This document shows positions 31,917 to 36,481 of a DNA stretch of 64,000 nt, piece after piece (the stretch's first letter is position 1; every line of letters begins with the position of its first letter). The translations under genes were made by a program, and so were the position numbers. A model generated the notes under the pieces. The model searched no databases, had not been told where the DNA came from, and was given only the letters and a program-made list of their open reading frames with translations. The stretch lies in contig NZ_KB904560.1 of NCBI RefSeq assembly GCF_000380085.1, forward strand, positions 1 through 64,000, in the 5' to 3' direction. The DNA comes from Streptococcus merionis DSM 19192. Lineage in GTDB: Bacteria; Bacillota; Bacilli; Lactobacillales; Streptococcaceae.

Positions 31917-32098
31917 GGTTCGAGGTTGAGTTGTGAGGAGTTATGCACTATTTGGAAATCAACTCATTAATCATATGATTTATGAAGAAAGTATCAGTTA
32001 CTTGGTTATATATAAATTATAGTAATCCAAGCTTTGATTTGCTAATACTTATCAGGTTTGACTATAGCTATCACTGTCCCGAAATAATTTTCCTCTAA

Positions 32099-32142
32099 AC
32101 TTAACTTATCTCCAATCCTCTGCTACAATACCAAAGTTAAGT
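32099..32142 (+). promoter_or_regulatory. Promoter and possible autoregulatory operator of the recombinase gene
   Basis: TTAACT (32101-32106), 17 bp, TACAAT (32124-32129, extended -10 TGC). The 9 bp inverted repeat ACTTAACTT (32099-32107) / AAGTTAAGT (32134-32142) covers the -35 box and the start region. A dimeric protein bound there would block transcription; self-regulation by the recombinase is inference. Confidence 0.5.
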
Positions 32143-32156
32143 AAAAGGAGAAATCA

Positions 32157-32843
32157 GTGGCAACATATTATGCTAAGAAATTCAAAAATCGAACTCATAT
32201 CAAAATCGGCTACGCCCGCGTCAGCTCAACGGACAACCGCCAAGAATTGGGCTTGGAAGTCCAAAAGGAAGCTCTTAAAAACTGCGATATTGTCTTTATT
32301 GAGAAAGATTCTGGTGGCAAGCAAGACCGCCCGAAACTCAAAAAAGCCTTCGAACTCGCAAGGCAGTGTTCGAACAATGGCATAGACACAACGCTTGTCG
32401 TTTACAAATTAGACCGCCTCACTCGGAAAATGTTTCAGCTGTCGGACATCATTCAAGACCTCACCAGCCACAACATTAAGCTCAAAAGCATTCAGGAAAA
32501 TATCGAAACAGATTCGCTAACGGGTAAGTTTTTCTGCCTGATTCTCGGCTATGTGGCGGAATGGGAACTAGAAGCGATTCGAAATCGCACCAAAGACGGA
32601 CTGCGAAAAGCCCGCGAGCGCGGTGTAAAGCTTGGTAATAAAGGCATTTCTAAGAATCTTGAACGGCTAATCATTTCCGAATACCTCTCGGCAAACATGT
32701 CGGTTCGCAAACTGTCTCAAAAGCTCAAAATATCCACTGCGACCATTTACAGCGTTTTGCGGCGCAATAGTATCCCAATAAATCGTCAAAAAGCACATAA
32801 TGTGTTGACGAAACCTCAAAAAAATGGTAAAGTAAACATGTAA
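32157..32843 (+). CDS. Small serine recombinase (resolvase/invertase family)
   Basis: 228 residues, GTG start behind AAAAGGAG. The catalytic Ser23 lies in GYARVSSTDNRQ; VVYKLDRLTRKM carries the active-site arginines; LILGYVAEWELEAIRNRTKDGLRKARERG is the E-helix and arm. A C-terminal helix-turn-helix (about 165-205, SVRKLSQKLKISTATIYSVLRR) binds DNA. It is longer than Tn3 resolvase (about 185) at both ends. No transposase accompanies it. Two matching 30 bp palindromes follow the stop at 3 bp and 120 bp, plausible binding or crossover sites. Confidence 0.92.
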   Translation: MATYYAKKFKNRTHIKIGYARVSSTDNRQELGLEVQKEALKNCDIVFIEKDSGGKQDRPKLKKAFELARQCSNNGIDTTLVVYKLDRLTRKMFQLSDIIQDLTSHNIKLKSIQENIETDSLTGKFFCLILGYVAEWELEAIRNRTKDGLRKARERGVKLGNKGISKNLERLIISEYLSANMSVRKLSQKLKISTATIYSVLRRNSIPINRQKAHNVLTKPQKNGKVNM

Positions 32844-32845
32844 AC

Positions 32846-32875
32846 TGTTTTAGTAGACGGTCGTTTATTAAAACA
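32846..32875. repeat. 30 bp palindrome, copy 1 (candidate recombinase site)
   Basis: Half-site TGTTTTAGTAGACGG and, inverted, TGTTTTAATAAACGA. Both match the half-sites of copy 2 (consensus TGTTTTARTWRACGR). It begins 3 bp after the recombinase stop. Confidence 0.65.
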
Positions 32876-32902
32876 ATCAAAGTCATCCATAAGAAATAAA
32901 TG

Positions 32903-32952
32903 AAATGCTGATTTGACAAGGTTTTTAGGATTTTGTCAGGTTGGCATTTTTT
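32903..32952 (+). terminator. Terminator between the two palindromes
   Basis: A 17 bp stem with G-U pairs (AAATGCTGATTTGACAA with TTGTCAGGTTGGCATTT) and a T run. It should end recombinase transcription before the downstream cassette. Confidence 0.8.
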
Positions 32953-32962
32953 GATTTTTCAG

Positions 32963-32992
32963 TGTTTTAGTTGACGACCGTTAACTAAAACA
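32963..32992. repeat. 30 bp palindrome, copy 2 (candidate recombinase site or operator)
   Basis: Half-site TGTTTTAGTTGACGA and, inverted, TGTTTTAGTTAACGG. It lies 117 bp from copy 1 and overlaps a possible -35 (TTAACT 32981-32986; TATTGT 33004-33009, 17 bp spacer) for the downstream genes, so it could be an operator. Confidence 0.65.
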
Positions 32993-33048
32993 CGCCAAAA
33001 CCCTATTGTAGCAGGGATTTTGGGGTGAAAAATAAAAAGGAGATTTTT

Positions 33049-33525
33049 ATGCGGATTCCTATTAGATATATACCATTTATTATTGTTTTTGCGGTTGTTG
33101 TTTTCGGTGCTGCCGCTATTATTATCAATTATCAAAACAAGAAACTTATTGAAGCTGGCATTATGCGTAAGCGTGCCTTATATTTCTTTAAACGCAAGTA
33201 TATTTTTAAGTCAAAGTTATTGGATTTAAAATCAATATACGATGCAATTGATAAGTCTTATATGGATTCCGAAGGCATTGTATGCCAATTAAAGGAGAGC
33301 CAATCCAGTATTGTTATGTGGGGAAAATCTGTAGACAATGAAACAACCGTTGTCTTTACTTCTAAAGGTGGCAAAAATTATGATGTTGAATTTGAGTTCT
33401 ATGTTGAGGACGTCGAAGGTTACCCAATAGAACGATATATTAACGTTTTCTTAACCTCCGTAGAAAAAGCATTTGAGCAGCTTGATCCTGATTACAAGGG
33501 ATCTTCTGAGCCTTTTTTGAAGTAA
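33049..33525 (+). CDS. Membrane-anchored protein of unknown function
   Basis: 158 residues. After MRIPIRY comes one hydrophobic segment (about 8-29), then a basic stretch (KRALYFFKRKYIFKSK) and a mixed alpha/beta domain of about 110 residues (VVFTSKGGKNYDVEFEF). The family is not recognised. The ATG at 33049 follows AAAAAGGAG; an in-frame GTG at 33025 lies before that site and is rejected. First of six genes on one strand after the recombinase. Confidence 0.7.
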   Translation: MRIPIRYIPFIIVFAVVVFGAAAIIINYQNKKLIEAGIMRKRALYFFKRKYIFKSKLLDLKSIYDAIDKSYMDSEGIVCQLKESQSSIVMWGKSVDNETTVVFTSKGGKNYDVEFEFYVEDVEGYPIERYINVFLTSVEKAFEQLDPDYKGSSEPFLK

Positions 33526-33564
33526 GCTCTTAAAGTTAAAATACCAAAAAAGAAAGATAATATT

Positions 33565-34731
33565 ATGACAAAATTCAGAAAAATAGCAAAGTATCTATTA
33601 TCCATTTCTGTTGTTACTGCCTTATCTCTATGCTTTATGGGATGCCATAAACAAACAACCACCATCGAAACGGTAGAATCTATCGACGAAATTATTGAAG
33701 AATCTTCAAATGATGCTACGGAAGACGAGGTTGATTTTAAAAACCAGTATTCTCCATATCAAGTTTATACGCGTAAAGATAGTATTAACATCACAGATAC
33801 TCAGCCTTATGTGGCGCCTGCCAATGTAGATAATTATGTCGGTTATTATGAAATAATCCCACATGACTCTGTAGATAAAGATACCGAAACAGAAAAAAGA
33901 TATCTTGAAATCAAAGAAAATGGTTACTATACATTATATAAGGAAGATATTTTCACAGGTATTATTCACCAAGAAAATGTTAAGTATATCCAATCCGATG
34001 ATTCTTATGTTAGATCTGATGAACTCACAAAACACTTAAGGATAGAATCAGGCGTTCTCACATCGGAGTTTACTACACTTAAACTACGGCCTATCTCAAT
34101 ATTTAGCAACTATACTTACGATTTTAATTTAGAATGGGTTTACGATATGGAAGGCAAACGAGAAACATTAGCCTTTACGGCTGGTGAGGTAAAAAAGGAC
34201 GACGATGGCAATCTCACAGTTTCAAATGTACCTCTTTTAGGCGAAATGTCTTATACGATCTATATAGGTCCATACAGCGATTTTAGTGGAACCGTCACCG
34301 CAGTGGATAATGGCGAAATTGTTTTTGAGGATAATAGTCAACATGCGACACGTAGATTCAAAAAGACAGACGATATTCCTGAATACGTTAAACGAAGTGT
34401 CTTTCAGCAGTATTATGACTGGCTGGAAAATTATGATACAAAATTCAAGAATAAGAATGAATTTCTCCAAGCGTTAAGAACTGAAGGAATTCAAACTAAG
34501 GGTGATAAAGCATTAGATGATGAATTTCTTTCTAAAAAAGGATATACGGCATCAGGTGAAAAAATACAAATGAAATATCTTTTCTGTCCAGGAAATTCTT
34601 ATGCTGACTGTTATGGATATGATGGAAATAAGGTATATAAAGGGGATCTTAATGAAAATGCCGATATTATAGAATGGGAAGAAATGACATTAAACACAGA
34701 AGCTGTGAAGAATGCAATCGCTAATCATTAA
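33565..34731 (+). CDS. Large lipoprotein of unknown function
   Basis: 388 residues. A lipoprotein signal (about 1-27) ends in LCFMGC; the Cys would be lipidated and the protein held on the outer face of the membrane. An acidic linker (IDEIIEESSNDATEDEVD) follows, then beta-rich domains with repeated short strands (YVGYYEIIP, YLEIKENGYYTLY) resembling lipocalin-like sensor or binding lipoproteins, and a C-terminal part with two further Cys (FCPGNSYADCYG). No family recognised. Weak ribosome site (AAGAAAGATAA). Confidence 0.75.
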   Translation: MTKFRKIAKYLLSISVVTALSLCFMGCHKQTTTIETVESIDEIIEESSNDATEDEVDFKNQYSPYQVYTRKDSINITDTQPYVAPANVDNYVGYYEIIPHDSVDKDTETEKRYLEIKENGYYTLYKEDIFTGIIHQENVKYIQSDDSYVRSDELTKHLRIESGVLTSEFTTLKLRPISIFSNYTYDFNLEWVYDMEGKRETLAFTAGEVKKDDDGNLTVSNVPLLGEMSYTIYIGPYSDFSGTVTAVDNGEIVFEDNSQHATRRFKKTDDIPEYVKRSVFQQYYDWLENYDTKFKNKNEFLQALRTEGIQTKGDKALDDEFLSKKGYTASGEKIQMKYLFCPGNSYADCYGYDGNKVYKGDLNENADIIEWEEMTLNTEAVKNAIANH

Positions 34732-34762
34732 TGATTCTCATTAACGAGGAGGTAGAAATAGC

Positions 34763-35218
34763 GTGAAAAGATTATTGAATATTGTTTTTGCGGGATTGAT
34801 TGGAATTTGTCTTTTCGGTTGTCAAAGTCGCGCCAACTATGTTGGTCAATGGCAAACTGATATTTTCGACCAAGGTAATAGTCGTAAAGCTGGTGCTGGA
34901 TTTGCTGGTAGTGCATTTGGAGGTGGTGTATGGAATAGTATCTCTTCTGCTATTGCTAATCAGCTCCATTGGAATGCGACGTTAACCTTAAACGAAGATG
35001 GCACTGCGGTTATGGATAATGGTATGAAGTTTAGTGCGACTTGGCGTGAAGAAGGCGGACATATCGTTATCGAAGGAGATAATATTGAAGGAACGGCGAC
35101 TCTTTCTGATGACAACAATACCCTGTACTTCAAAAATAACCTTAGTGATGAGCCTTCATCAAACGGTATGACAATCGGTCAAAACTATTTAGAGTTCGAA
35201 TTTAAACGAGTGGAGTAA
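34763..35218 (+). CDS. Lipoprotein of unknown function with a beta-barrel-like domain
   Basis: 151 residues, GTG start behind GAGGAGGT. The lipobox is CLFGC (Cys about 20). The mature part begins YVGQWQTDIFDQGN, then a Gly/Ala-rich insert (GAGFAGSAFGGGV), then alternating strands (NATLTLNEDGTAVM, FSATWREEGGHIVIEG, ATLSDDNNTLYF) like lipocalin-type 'extracellular endo-sensing' domains. The fold is inferred from pattern only. Three bases separate it from the next lipoprotein gene. Confidence 0.75.
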   Translation: MKRLLNIVFAGLIGICLFGCQSRANYVGQWQTDIFDQGNSRKAGAGFAGSAFGGGVWNSISSAIANQLHWNATLTLNEDGTAVMDNGMKFSATWREEGGHIVIEGDNIEGTATLSDDNNTLYFKNNLSDEPSSNGMTIGQNYLEFEFKRVE

Positions 35219-35221
35219 GTA

Positions 35222-35584
35222 ATGAAGAAGAAATTATTATCTATTTTAGCCTTAGGTCTGACGATTCTTTTAGTTGCCTGTGGGCAAAGAAATAACCTAA
35301 CTACGGATGATTTTCCATCAATTGGTTCTGGTTTGACTAAAAGTTCCTTAGAGCAAGCTGTCGGTAAACCACATGAATCCTCTAAAAGTCCTCTGGATGT
35401 TGCTAAGATGATGTTACAAATATTTGATGCGTCCAAAGAAGTTGACCCTAAGTGGAACCCTGAAAATACACCAACAGAGTATTATCTCTATAAATTGTCT
35501 GATGGTAACACTGCTATGGTAGCGATTCTGGTAGATGACCAAGTCGTTGAAATTACAACTAATCCGTTGAGGTACGAAGAATGA
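35222..35584 (+). CDS. Small lipoprotein of unknown function
   Basis: 120 residues. Lipobox LLVAC (Cys about 20), then QRNNLTTDDFPSIGSGLTKS and a small domain with repeated strand/turn pattern (YYLYKLSDGNTAMVAILVDD). LEQAVGKPHE resembles the turn region of SmpA/OmlA-type small beta-lactamase-inhibitor-like lipoproteins, a weak similarity. It overlaps the next gene by 4 bp (ATGA). Confidence 0.75.
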   Translation: MKKKLLSILALGLTILLVACGQRNNLTTDDFPSIGSGLTKSSLEQAVGKPHESSKSPLDVAKMMLQIFDASKEVDPKWNPENTPTEYYLYKLSDGNTAMVAILVDDQVVEITTNPLRYEE

Positions 35585-35931
35585 TTGTAGATGAATTTAA
35601 AAAGCTAAAAGCAAGTATTCGTTGGCGAATAACAGCTGTGTTAATAGTGGCTTTTCTTGGATTTATATTTTTATTAAAAGATAATGGATCAATAAATTAT
35701 GGTGGTTTCTCTTACGAGGTTGGCTCTGTTTTTGATCCTGCGTCATATACCAGCTATGGTTTCTTTAAAACTGCTGAGAGTGAAATAAATCAATTAGCCT
35801 CTCAAAAACGTAATGGCAGTCTGGCTGGGTTTATCTTCTGTATTTTAGCAGAGGGTGTCTTAGTCTATTCTCTGTGGAAAGAAGATGATATTAAAGATAT
35901 CATTTTGAAAATAAAGAATGGAGAGATATAG
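35581..35931 (+). CDS. Two-span membrane protein of unknown function
   Basis: 116 residues with hydrophobic segments at about 19-34 and 83-98, an outer loop of about 50 residues (GGFSYEVGSVFDPASYTSYG) and basic or charged ends. Start ATGA overlaps the preceding stop; its own stop abuts the next start. Family not recognised. Confidence 0.65.
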   Translation: MIVDEFKKLKASIRWRITAVLIVAFLGFIFLLKDNGSINYGGFSYEVGSVFDPASYTSYGFFKTAESEINQLASQKRNGSLAGFIFCILAEGVLVYSLWKEDDIKDIILKIKNGEI

Positions 35932-36114
35932 GTGGATAAGGTTTTAGGGATTATTATTTTCGTTATTGCTTGTTTTGTGATCGTTAAGATGTGGGAGCTT
36001 CTTGAAACGGTAATAGCTGGAATTTTAAGATTTTTTGGTGGTCTCATTGGAGGTGCATTTACCAGAAGTCTCGAAAAATATGAAGAAAGTAAGAACCAAG
36101 AAAACAGAGATTAA
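35932..36114 (+). CDS. 60-aa membrane protein of unknown function
   Basis: GTG start immediately after the preceding stop, with GGAGAGAT as ribosome site. One long hydrophobic N-terminus (LGIIIFVIACFVIVKMW), a Gly-rich FFGGLIGGAF stretch and a charged tail. Last gene of the cassette. Family not recognised. Confidence 0.55.
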   Translation: MDKVLGIIIFVIACFVIVKMWELLETVIAGILRFFGGLIGGAFTRSLEKYEESKNQENRD

Positions 36115-36452
36115 GTTTTTTATCGGCGACTCCCAATCGCATCGCTGTCCGCTTCGGGTAGTTTAAGAAATGGCGATAGTCCCTGACAATTTGCCATTTT
36201 TCAAGCAAACCGTCAGGCAACTTACTGCGTATTTTTATATCTTTTCGTTAGCTTCTTAGCGACACAATTAAGTCAGCTTCGTTTTTGGGAGCTGGCTTGA
36301 TTTTTTATTCTAGACTCCAGAGCTTAAAATGTCGGAGAAAATTTATCCTGAAAACGAATCGTGCTTAGCTATCAGAATAATTGAATAAGGCGAGGCTAAA
36401 CAAGCAACACAAATTGAGCCTTTTTACAAGGTTATGAGAGGCGGTTGGTTGT
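36115..36452. other. Intergenic after the lipoprotein cassette, no gene seen
   Basis: CCTGAC/GTCAGG pairs at about 36192-36234. No third copy of the 30 bp palindrome was found here, so the right border of the putative cassette is not marked by one. The terminator at 36266-36306 is listed separately. Confidence 0.45.
36266..36306 (+). terminator. Terminator of the lipoprotein cassette
   Basis: AATTAAGTCAGCTTC and GGGAGCTGGCTTGATT pair with G-U pairs, followed by TTTTTT. Confidence 0.75.
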
Positions 36453-36481
36453 TTGGACTGCTGAGGGAGGTGTGGTATAAT
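36453..36481 (+). promoter_or_regulatory. Promoter of the DUF2200/fol operon, probably leaderless
   Basis: TTGGAC (36453-36458), 17 bp, extended -10 TGGTATAAT (TATAAT 36476-36481), then six bases to the ATG of the DUF2200 gene. Confidence 0.65.

Follow-up and report, generated by a model that had tools for sequence, protein, structure and literature searches.

Why does a recombinase gene stand in front of a run of six short envelope genes? This question is raised by a locus in a stretch of 64,000 nucleotides from Streptococcus merionis DSM 19192 (contig NZ_KB904560.1, positions 1 to 64,000 of the forward strand), which as a whole is called the window in the following. A first-pass annotation made from the letters alone had described the run as a mobile surface cassette, and it did not mention that paired sites, a terminator and a promoter sit between the recombinase and the operon. 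With these elements included, the locus is very probably an acquired phase-variation module, with a terminator-inversion switch placed before an envelope operon. The sites and their reverse-complementary cores, both orientations of the segment, the placement of the promoter, the direction-dependent hairpin and the insertion can all be read from the sequences compared below, and an ON/OFF control of the operon by inversion is well supported.

In the model that we propose, a promoter at the end of the recombinase gene would drive transcription to the right, into a segment of some 117 bp enclosed by two inverted sites. In orientation A the RNA would fold as an intrinsic terminator, the transcript would stop after about 110 nt and the operon would be OFF. 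The recombinase would then invert the segment between the two cores, and this change to orientation B would turn the G-U pairs in the stem into A-C mismatches, weaken the terminator and let the polymerase enter the operon (ON). The window is predicted to be in orientation A, which is OFF, and the operon is therefore predicted to be silent in the majority of cells of the culture that was sequenced. What we infer from this arrangement is termination in the cell as modelled, its efficiency, the level reached in the ON state and the action of the products at the surface.

Two inverted sites and a segment found in both orientations

We searched 284 Streptococcus genomes for the recombinase at a threshold of E <= 1e-36 and found it in 43 of them at 54 places, and the flanks were read for 53 of these, the window included. 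Counts of distinct loci omit L041, a duplicate of L002 (the same S. minor locus). Two loci were dropped from the counts, namely L113, where an N run covers the region, and L123, where the recombinase is truncated and a single site is left, and a partial recombinase match inside the L066 region was not counted as a locus of its own. As the loci share descent, no use is made of a Mann-Whitney value for the comparison of the switch segments with ordinary terminators.

In the window the palindrome finder placed crossover site 1 at 32847..32874 (+ strand, core GT at 32860-32861) and crossover site 2 at 32964..32991 (+ strand, core AC at 32977-32978). These two 28-bp palindromic sites flank 89 bp carrying the intrinsic terminator, and both are kept between recombinase and cargo at 51 of the 53 distinct Streptococcus places, the exceptions being L113 (hidden by N) and L123 (decayed). 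The finder used palindromic arms and a CG-flanked centre and did not demand complementary cores; the central dinucleotides are mutually reverse-complementary in 51 of 51 distinct loci (26 GT/AC, 19 AC/GT, 4 TT/AA and 2 AA/TT). From Hin/Gin-type systems it is known that such sites are in inverted orientation and that the serine recombinase inverts the DNA between them, and with reverse-complementary cores such as GT/AC recombination should therefore invert the segment. A Tn3-type resolvase with res sites, where direct repeats lead to deletion or resolution, was considered and rejected, as the cores are inverted in 51/51 loci. In the own genome (2.36 Mb, 3 mismatches allowed) sites occur at four places, which form two pairs, each behind a copy of the recombinase. 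The spacing of the sites is 107-109 or 115-119 bp in Streptococcus and 105-106, 116-118 or 127 bp in other genera; taken together, the classes of 105-109, 115-119 and 127 bp are separated by steps near one helical turn.

The invertible segment spans 32860..32978 from core to core and is inverted, with half-sites exchanged, in four of the 51 related loci (L071, L072, L115 and L122). The clearest pair is L115 and L079, which agree core to core at 109/110 when flipped vs 72/118 in direct comparison and have outer flanks agreeing at 71/73 and 71/73; site 2 of L115 was below the palindrome threshold of the finder and was located by eye. Further flipped matches are L122/L076 (119/121), L072/L120 (107/110) and L071/L118 (109/121), with less similar flanks. 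This gives 48 A and 4 B orientations in 52 rows, one A row being a duplicate. In the recombinase tree, for which all statements were read by eye from the branches, the four inverted loci are spread within one clade and several flips are therefore implied. Inversion of the segment is strongly supported by these sequence comparisons.

A predicted one-way terminator behind a conserved promoter

The terminator scan detected an intrinsic terminator at 32902..32951 on the + strand only, and it is this one-way terminator in state A that is predicted to keep the operon OFF. In the window, the segment forms a stem of 23 pairs with a T tract behind it; this stem contains 14 Watson-Crick pairs, 9 G-U pairs and no A-C opposition, and the 9 G-U pairs would therefore become 9 A-C mismatches in the flipped transcript. 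The fold energy is -25.7 kcal/mol as found vs -14.8 kcal/mol flipped, and the + strand shows a z of -3.96 vs dinucleotide shuffles. Of the 39 distinct segments from the first 42 loci, taken as found, 37 have a more stable fold than their reverse complement, with a margin of 6.5-22.6 kcal/mol; only L071 and L072, both inverted, deviate from this. Furthermore, the stems of 43 distinct state-A segments hold 216 G-U vs 23 A-C oppositions, with an excess of G-U in 41 and a tie in 2 of them, and the stems of the four inverted loci show more A-C than G-U oppositions. In L068 and L070 the architecture is retained and the hairpin sequence looks unrelated.

The promoter scan predicted a switch and operon promoter, TTGACG-17-TAAAGT, at 32805..32833 (+ strand), located in the last codons of the recombinase gene. 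A promoter of the form TTG[AC]NN-N16-19-TANANT at most 62 nt before site 1 is present in all 51 distinct loci vs 1.2% of shuffles, and the distance from the -10 element to site 1 is always 12-16 nt (51 distinct loci). The promoter is located outside and upstream of the inverting DNA, as in the cwpV type of switch discussed below. It would also be conceivable that the flipped segment itself carries the promoter of the cargo, since invertible promoters are, as far as general accounts go, the commonest type of small invertible regulatory DNA. However, we found no promoter-like match on either strand within 32875-32963 of the window, the conserved promoter stands outside the segment and before site 1 in 51/51 loci, and the conserved feature of the segment is a hairpin with a T tract, so that an invertible promoter appears very improbable.

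An inverted copy of the extended -10 motif of the recombinase promoter (TGCTACAAT; 33001..33016, - strand) follows site 2, as it does in 28 of 51 distinct loci. This copy may be a leftward promoter directed at the switch or a repeat that ends the head unit; in the first case its gating would be opposite to that of the cargo. The flip might then mainly control the recombinase, via antisense RNA from the leftward promoter after site 2 or via the 3' end of its mRNA, and a precedent is named in the part of the cwpV account drawn on here, where a phase-variable terminator acts on fimE of E. coli (PMC2784873). Such a control as the main purpose is hardly to be expected, as the motif is missing in 23 of the 51 loci that retain the rest of the switch and as the cargo consists mostly of envelope genes, just as phase variation predicts.

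Invertase of the switch or mover of the cassette

The gene upstream of the run had been annotated as a recombinase, and it indeed encodes a resolvase/invertase-family serine recombinase (PF00239, E 1.2e-32), a predicted invertase starting with GTG at 32157..32843 (+ strand). Its own predicted promoter, TTAACT-17-TACAAT with an extended -10, was found by the promoter scan at 32101..32129 (+ strand). The domains above cut-off are PF00239 at 17-157 followed by HTH_38 at 169-204, which is the architecture of a small serine recombinase with an N-terminal resolvase catalytic domain and a C-terminal helix-turn-helix. A PHROG DNA invertase is matched with 4.1e-47, and the nearest solved chains are DNA invertases (4m6f and 3uj3, 2.2e-20) of the Gin/Hin type. 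The match to NCBIfam NF009949, the Mpi master invertase family, has an E of 2.5e-13 and 50 bits vs a cut-off of 272. In the 53 aligned recombinase ranges, what we take to be the catalytic-type serine and arginine motifs of the family are seen in 47/53 and 52/53, respectively. From its adjacency to naturally inverted segments we infer that this recombinase catalyses the inversion.

The module is inserted between mnmE and a DUF2200 gene, with outer limits 31920..36472 set by the adjacency of these two genes in three relatives. It had been suggested earlier to look whether they are contiguous where the cassette is absent, and they are adjacent in 3/3 relatives (G208, G209 and G271; L110-L112), which were the best non-own matches to the DUF2200/folC region, with gaps of 99, 100 and 16 bp vs 4571 bp in the window. 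At the site of L077, between what we take to be an O-methyltransferase gene and a PrsA-like lipoprotein gene, the flanking genes are adjacent in all six relatives compared (L138-L143, taken from 28 non-own loci fetched) and L077 itself is 2.3 kb longer. The module is present or absent as one block in these comparisons (3/3 relatives at the window site, 6/6 at the L077 site) and occupies different chromosomal places. Judged by this gene order, the six-gene run together with the recombinase is an insertion.

Thus, the idea of a mobile surface cassette holds insofar as the cassette is acquired and tied to the recombinase, which is seen from the empty sites, the differing places and the co-occurrence with the third gene of the operon described below. 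The recombinase is best read as the invertase of the switch controlling the cassette rather than as the mover of the cassette. As the mobility enzyme of the element, a resolvase or integrase, it would make the palindromes res or att sites and the hairpin merely its terminator, and the insertion of the module at several places as well as the Tn3-type resolvases within the protein family would fit this idea. But the sites are placed between recombinase and cargo instead of at the ends, and apart from the two pairs the own genome has none; resolution or integration leaves both the always inverted cores and the segment found flipped unexplained, and there would be no need for a conserved promoter facing the hairpin. 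A mobility enzyme is therefore quite unlikely, and the invertase remains our preferred reading.

A right-end motif, GTGTGAACTCAGATTATTTAGACTGCTGAGTGTCA, stands behind unrelated cargo at the point where similarity ends in 12 of 41 distinct loci (L002, L047, L049, L052, L054, L055, L058, L059, L060, L064, L065 and L066) and is absent from the window. It is possibly the right end of the element.

Different cargo behind the same head

We assigned the cargo of the first 41 distinct loci to classes from the translations. In 25 of them the next long gene shows an LPXTG-type sorting signal, 12 including the window carry lipoprotein, membrane or other small-protein genes, and 4 (L056, L068, L070 and L072) have secreted-type cargo with no sorting signal in the listed frame. 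The own genome harbours a second copy of the module, L040 (G000:C2:130878-131537), with an intact recombinase protein that is 92% identical to that of the window. Recombinase plus switch of both loci share 94% DNA identity over 841 bp, with site 2 identical and site 1 differing in one base, and the cargo of L040 is a 615-amino-acid LPXTG-type protein. The window and L040 are sisters in the recombinase tree, and small-protein cargo is found on several separate branches; therefore the cargo appears to have been exchanged behind a conserved recombinase-plus-switch head. The window invertase may act in trans on L040. In another genome (G022) two loci, L057 and L061, both show the rare TT/AA cores, and the recombinase open reading frame (ORF) of L057 is split; here the intact recombinase copy may serve both switches.

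Among 246 Lactobacillales genomes, an even sample that includes the own genome and other streptococci, 9 carry the recombinase at E <= 1e-36, and 5 of these lie outside Streptococcus with 7 loci. In all seven a hairpin is flanked by two sites whose cores are complementary; as the site pair was picked by complementary cores, these loci support the arrangement and are no test of complementarity. L127 is followed by an LPXTG-type protein and L133 by a lipoprotein-like start, read by eye. The strand difference amounts to 5-10.5 kcal/mol in L127, L128, L130 and L131.

It is in our view an even call whether all this amounts to a self-contained natural 'transcriptor', in which a small serine invertase, equipped with sites of its own and with a one-way terminator encoded by G-U pairs, can stand before almost any envelope gene and spreads through the Lactobacillales as an exchangeable head. 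Two or three copies are present in some genomes, so that a single invertase may act in trans on several surface genes, which would lead to combinatorial surface states.

Weighing the switch

Several observations weigh against the switch as drawn. When flipped, the window strand retains a fold (-14.8 kcal/mol, z -2.97), and read-through may therefore be partial. A strand difference of 6.2 kcal/mol is reached by 46 of 46 distinct switch segments and also by 25% of 262 ordinary terminators from the same loci, in a comparison where the orientation of the switch segments was set by energy, a choice that tends to raise the asymmetry; the as-found fold comparison given above is the unbiased version. 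Outside Streptococcus the strand difference is small in L126 (2.5 kcal/mol) and L133 (2.2 kcal/mol) and slightly reversed in L134 (-1.0 kcal/mol), and the cores of L130 are AT and thus self-complementary, so that in these genera the G-U coding of direction is a tendency and not a rule. A catalytic-type motif is unseen in 6 of the 53 recombinase ranges, three of which are truncated. The evidence for orientation comes from the comparison of sequences between loci, with no same-species strain pair among them, and the inverted loci are 4 of 19 usable loci of one clade vs 0 of 32 in the rest of the tree, including the window.

A bias towards OFF would explain the 0/32, and alternatively switching may be rare or absent in the part of the tree to which the window belongs. 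In the latter direction, the module of the window could be the relic of a once-active switch that is now fixed, leaving the operon constitutively attenuated. This would agree with the 0/32 inverted loci in the clades that include the window, and decayed modules do occur: the recombinases of L122, L123 and L124 are truncated at the N-terminus. Yet the window recombinase is intact over 228 amino acids and closely matched by the second intact copy (92% identity), and sites, promoter and hairpin are all conserved, so that we regard a relic as unlikely and a working switch as the better explanation. Among the three truncated cases L122 is in orientation B, L124 is in orientation A and L123 is without site 1; L122 may be locked ON and L124 locked OFF.

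Relation to known switches

Gin/Hin-type invertases share with the module the small serine recombinase, the inverted sites and the asymmetric 2-bp cores. They act, with the help of an enhancer, on segments of kilobase size in which genes or a promoter are located, unlike the segment of about 117 bp with a terminator described here. In the synthetic transcriptor a serine recombinase flips an asymmetric terminator in order to gate the flow of polymerase, and this device is engineered and uses large serine integrases, whereas the system described here occurs in nature and combines a small recombinase with palindromic sites in inverted orientation. The Mpi master invertase, which flips promoters in Bacteroides in trans, has in common the serine recombinase in phase variation by DNA inversion.

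Among known mechanisms, the cwpV switch of Clostridioides difficile comes closest, as far as the excerpts of its description show (PMC2784873). According to these, both have a promoter outside and upstream, an untranslated segment that inverts and a surface protein downstream, and both have an intrinsic terminator, which was proposed for the OFF transcript of cwpV and is predicted here (PMC2784873). The cwpV switch differs in its tyrosine recombinase RecV, which is unlinked, in its 21-bp repeats and 195 bp, and in being described, in the same excerpts, for one gene in one species (PMC2784873); in the streptococcal module the serine recombinase is adjacent, the sites are 28-bp palindromes, the segment measures about 117 bp, and loci and cargos are many. 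It works like cwpV and is not a member of the cwpV type. In these excerpts cwpV is expressed in about 5% of the cells and mostly OFF (PMC2784873), and CwpV is reported to confer phage resistance (PMC4737114). The flg switch of C. difficile, in the part of its description used here, likewise has an invertible leader between promoter and operon and differs by its use of RecV and of Rho factor as mediator instead of an intrinsic hairpin (PMC7446863).

Searches of open-licence papers, judged at the level of titles and beginnings of abstracts, brought up neither a terminator switch run by a serine recombinase nor one placed before surface genes of streptococci, and the streptococcal DNA-inversion papers found at this level concern hsdS methylation loci. 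In a 2025 review on phase variation the word 'terminator' is absent from the main text. Phase variation sets which surface proteins a bacterial population presents to phages and hosts. If our reading is true, the module would contribute a class of ON/OFF surface antigens, with the recombinase in 43 of 284 Streptococcus genomes, and could explain why such surface proteins look unexpressed in culture. It would also offer those who study or engineer such switches a one-way terminator that is both compact and natural.

The operon of the window

The description of the operon itself in the first-pass annotation was borne out. Six ORFs lie on the + strand with the 3-bp gap, the ATGA overlap and the abutting stop/GTG as described, and the lipoboxes FMGC, LFGC and LVAC can be read directly in the sequence. 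They encode a membrane-anchored protein (ORF1, 33049..33525), three lipoproteins with a lipobox (ORF2, 33565..34731; ORF3, 34763..35218; ORF4, 35222..35584) and two further membrane proteins (ORF5, 35581..35931; ORF6, a small one, 35932..36114), and the hydropathy gives one hydrophobic segment for ORF1, two for ORF5 and one for ORF6. None of the six proteins matches a known family above the curated cut-off in Pfam and NCBIfam. PHROGs gave weak matches only and PADLOC gave no match at E up to 1, so that known anti-phage defence proteins were rejected as candidates, and the leader has no match in Rfam at E up to 1. The best weak matches of the cargo both belong to ORF4, namely the LptM signal region (4.4e-4) and phrog_3135 of unknown function (0.0018).

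ORF3 has matches in 6 of 284 genomes, the own one included, at 7 places, with the recombinase beside all 7; at its six other places (L004-L009, with two copies of the locus in genome G255) the recombinase lies just upstream and a relative of ORF5 downstream in all six, and relatives of ORF5 stand at six switch loci. ORF4 relatives are present at three of these six places, and ORF4 has relatives in L060, L063 and L064, where similar small genes also stand at the position of ORF6. A small membrane protein is found at this position in the other ORF3 places, too, grouped with ORF6 by sequence in 3/6, and ORF6 clusters with genes of L052, L058 and L065. This co-occurrence ties ORF3-5 to the recombinase. 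With an E of 1.2e-4 among 100 proteins, ORF1 is weakly related to cargo of L045, and in 279 genomes it has one weak match besides itself (E 0.0013); ORF2 was found in its own genome only when 97 genomes were searched.

The structure model of ORF3 is a small eight-strand barrel with a predicted local distance difference test score (pLDDT) of 65.5 and weak matches of the lipocalin or fatty-acid-binding-protein type, without a PDB match at E 0.001 or better; a sub-threshold match to Lipocalin_3 (0.017) was also obtained. The model of ORF2 reached a pLDDT of 36.8. A particular function of the cargo, such as the sensor or protective complex proposed in the first-pass annotation, is supported hardly at all. 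By analogy, a phase switch that governs lipoproteins and membrane proteins would point to a function at a surface on which phages or hosts exert selection.

A phage origin was rejected, as ORF2 has no match in phage records and viral contigs contain neither a relative of the recombinase nor a match to a site-2 pattern. A plasmid origin was rejected as well, as a 4.4 kb query matched only a 118 bp intergenic stretch of one S. salivarius plasmid. The run is closed, as had been noted, by a terminator-like hairpin at 36266..36302 (+ strand, terminator scan, fold z -3.72). Between the operon and this hairpin, the 118 bp at 36137-36254 show 73% identity to the intergenic stretch of the S. salivarius plasmid, pIKMIN-B501, and are present as a single copy in the own genome.

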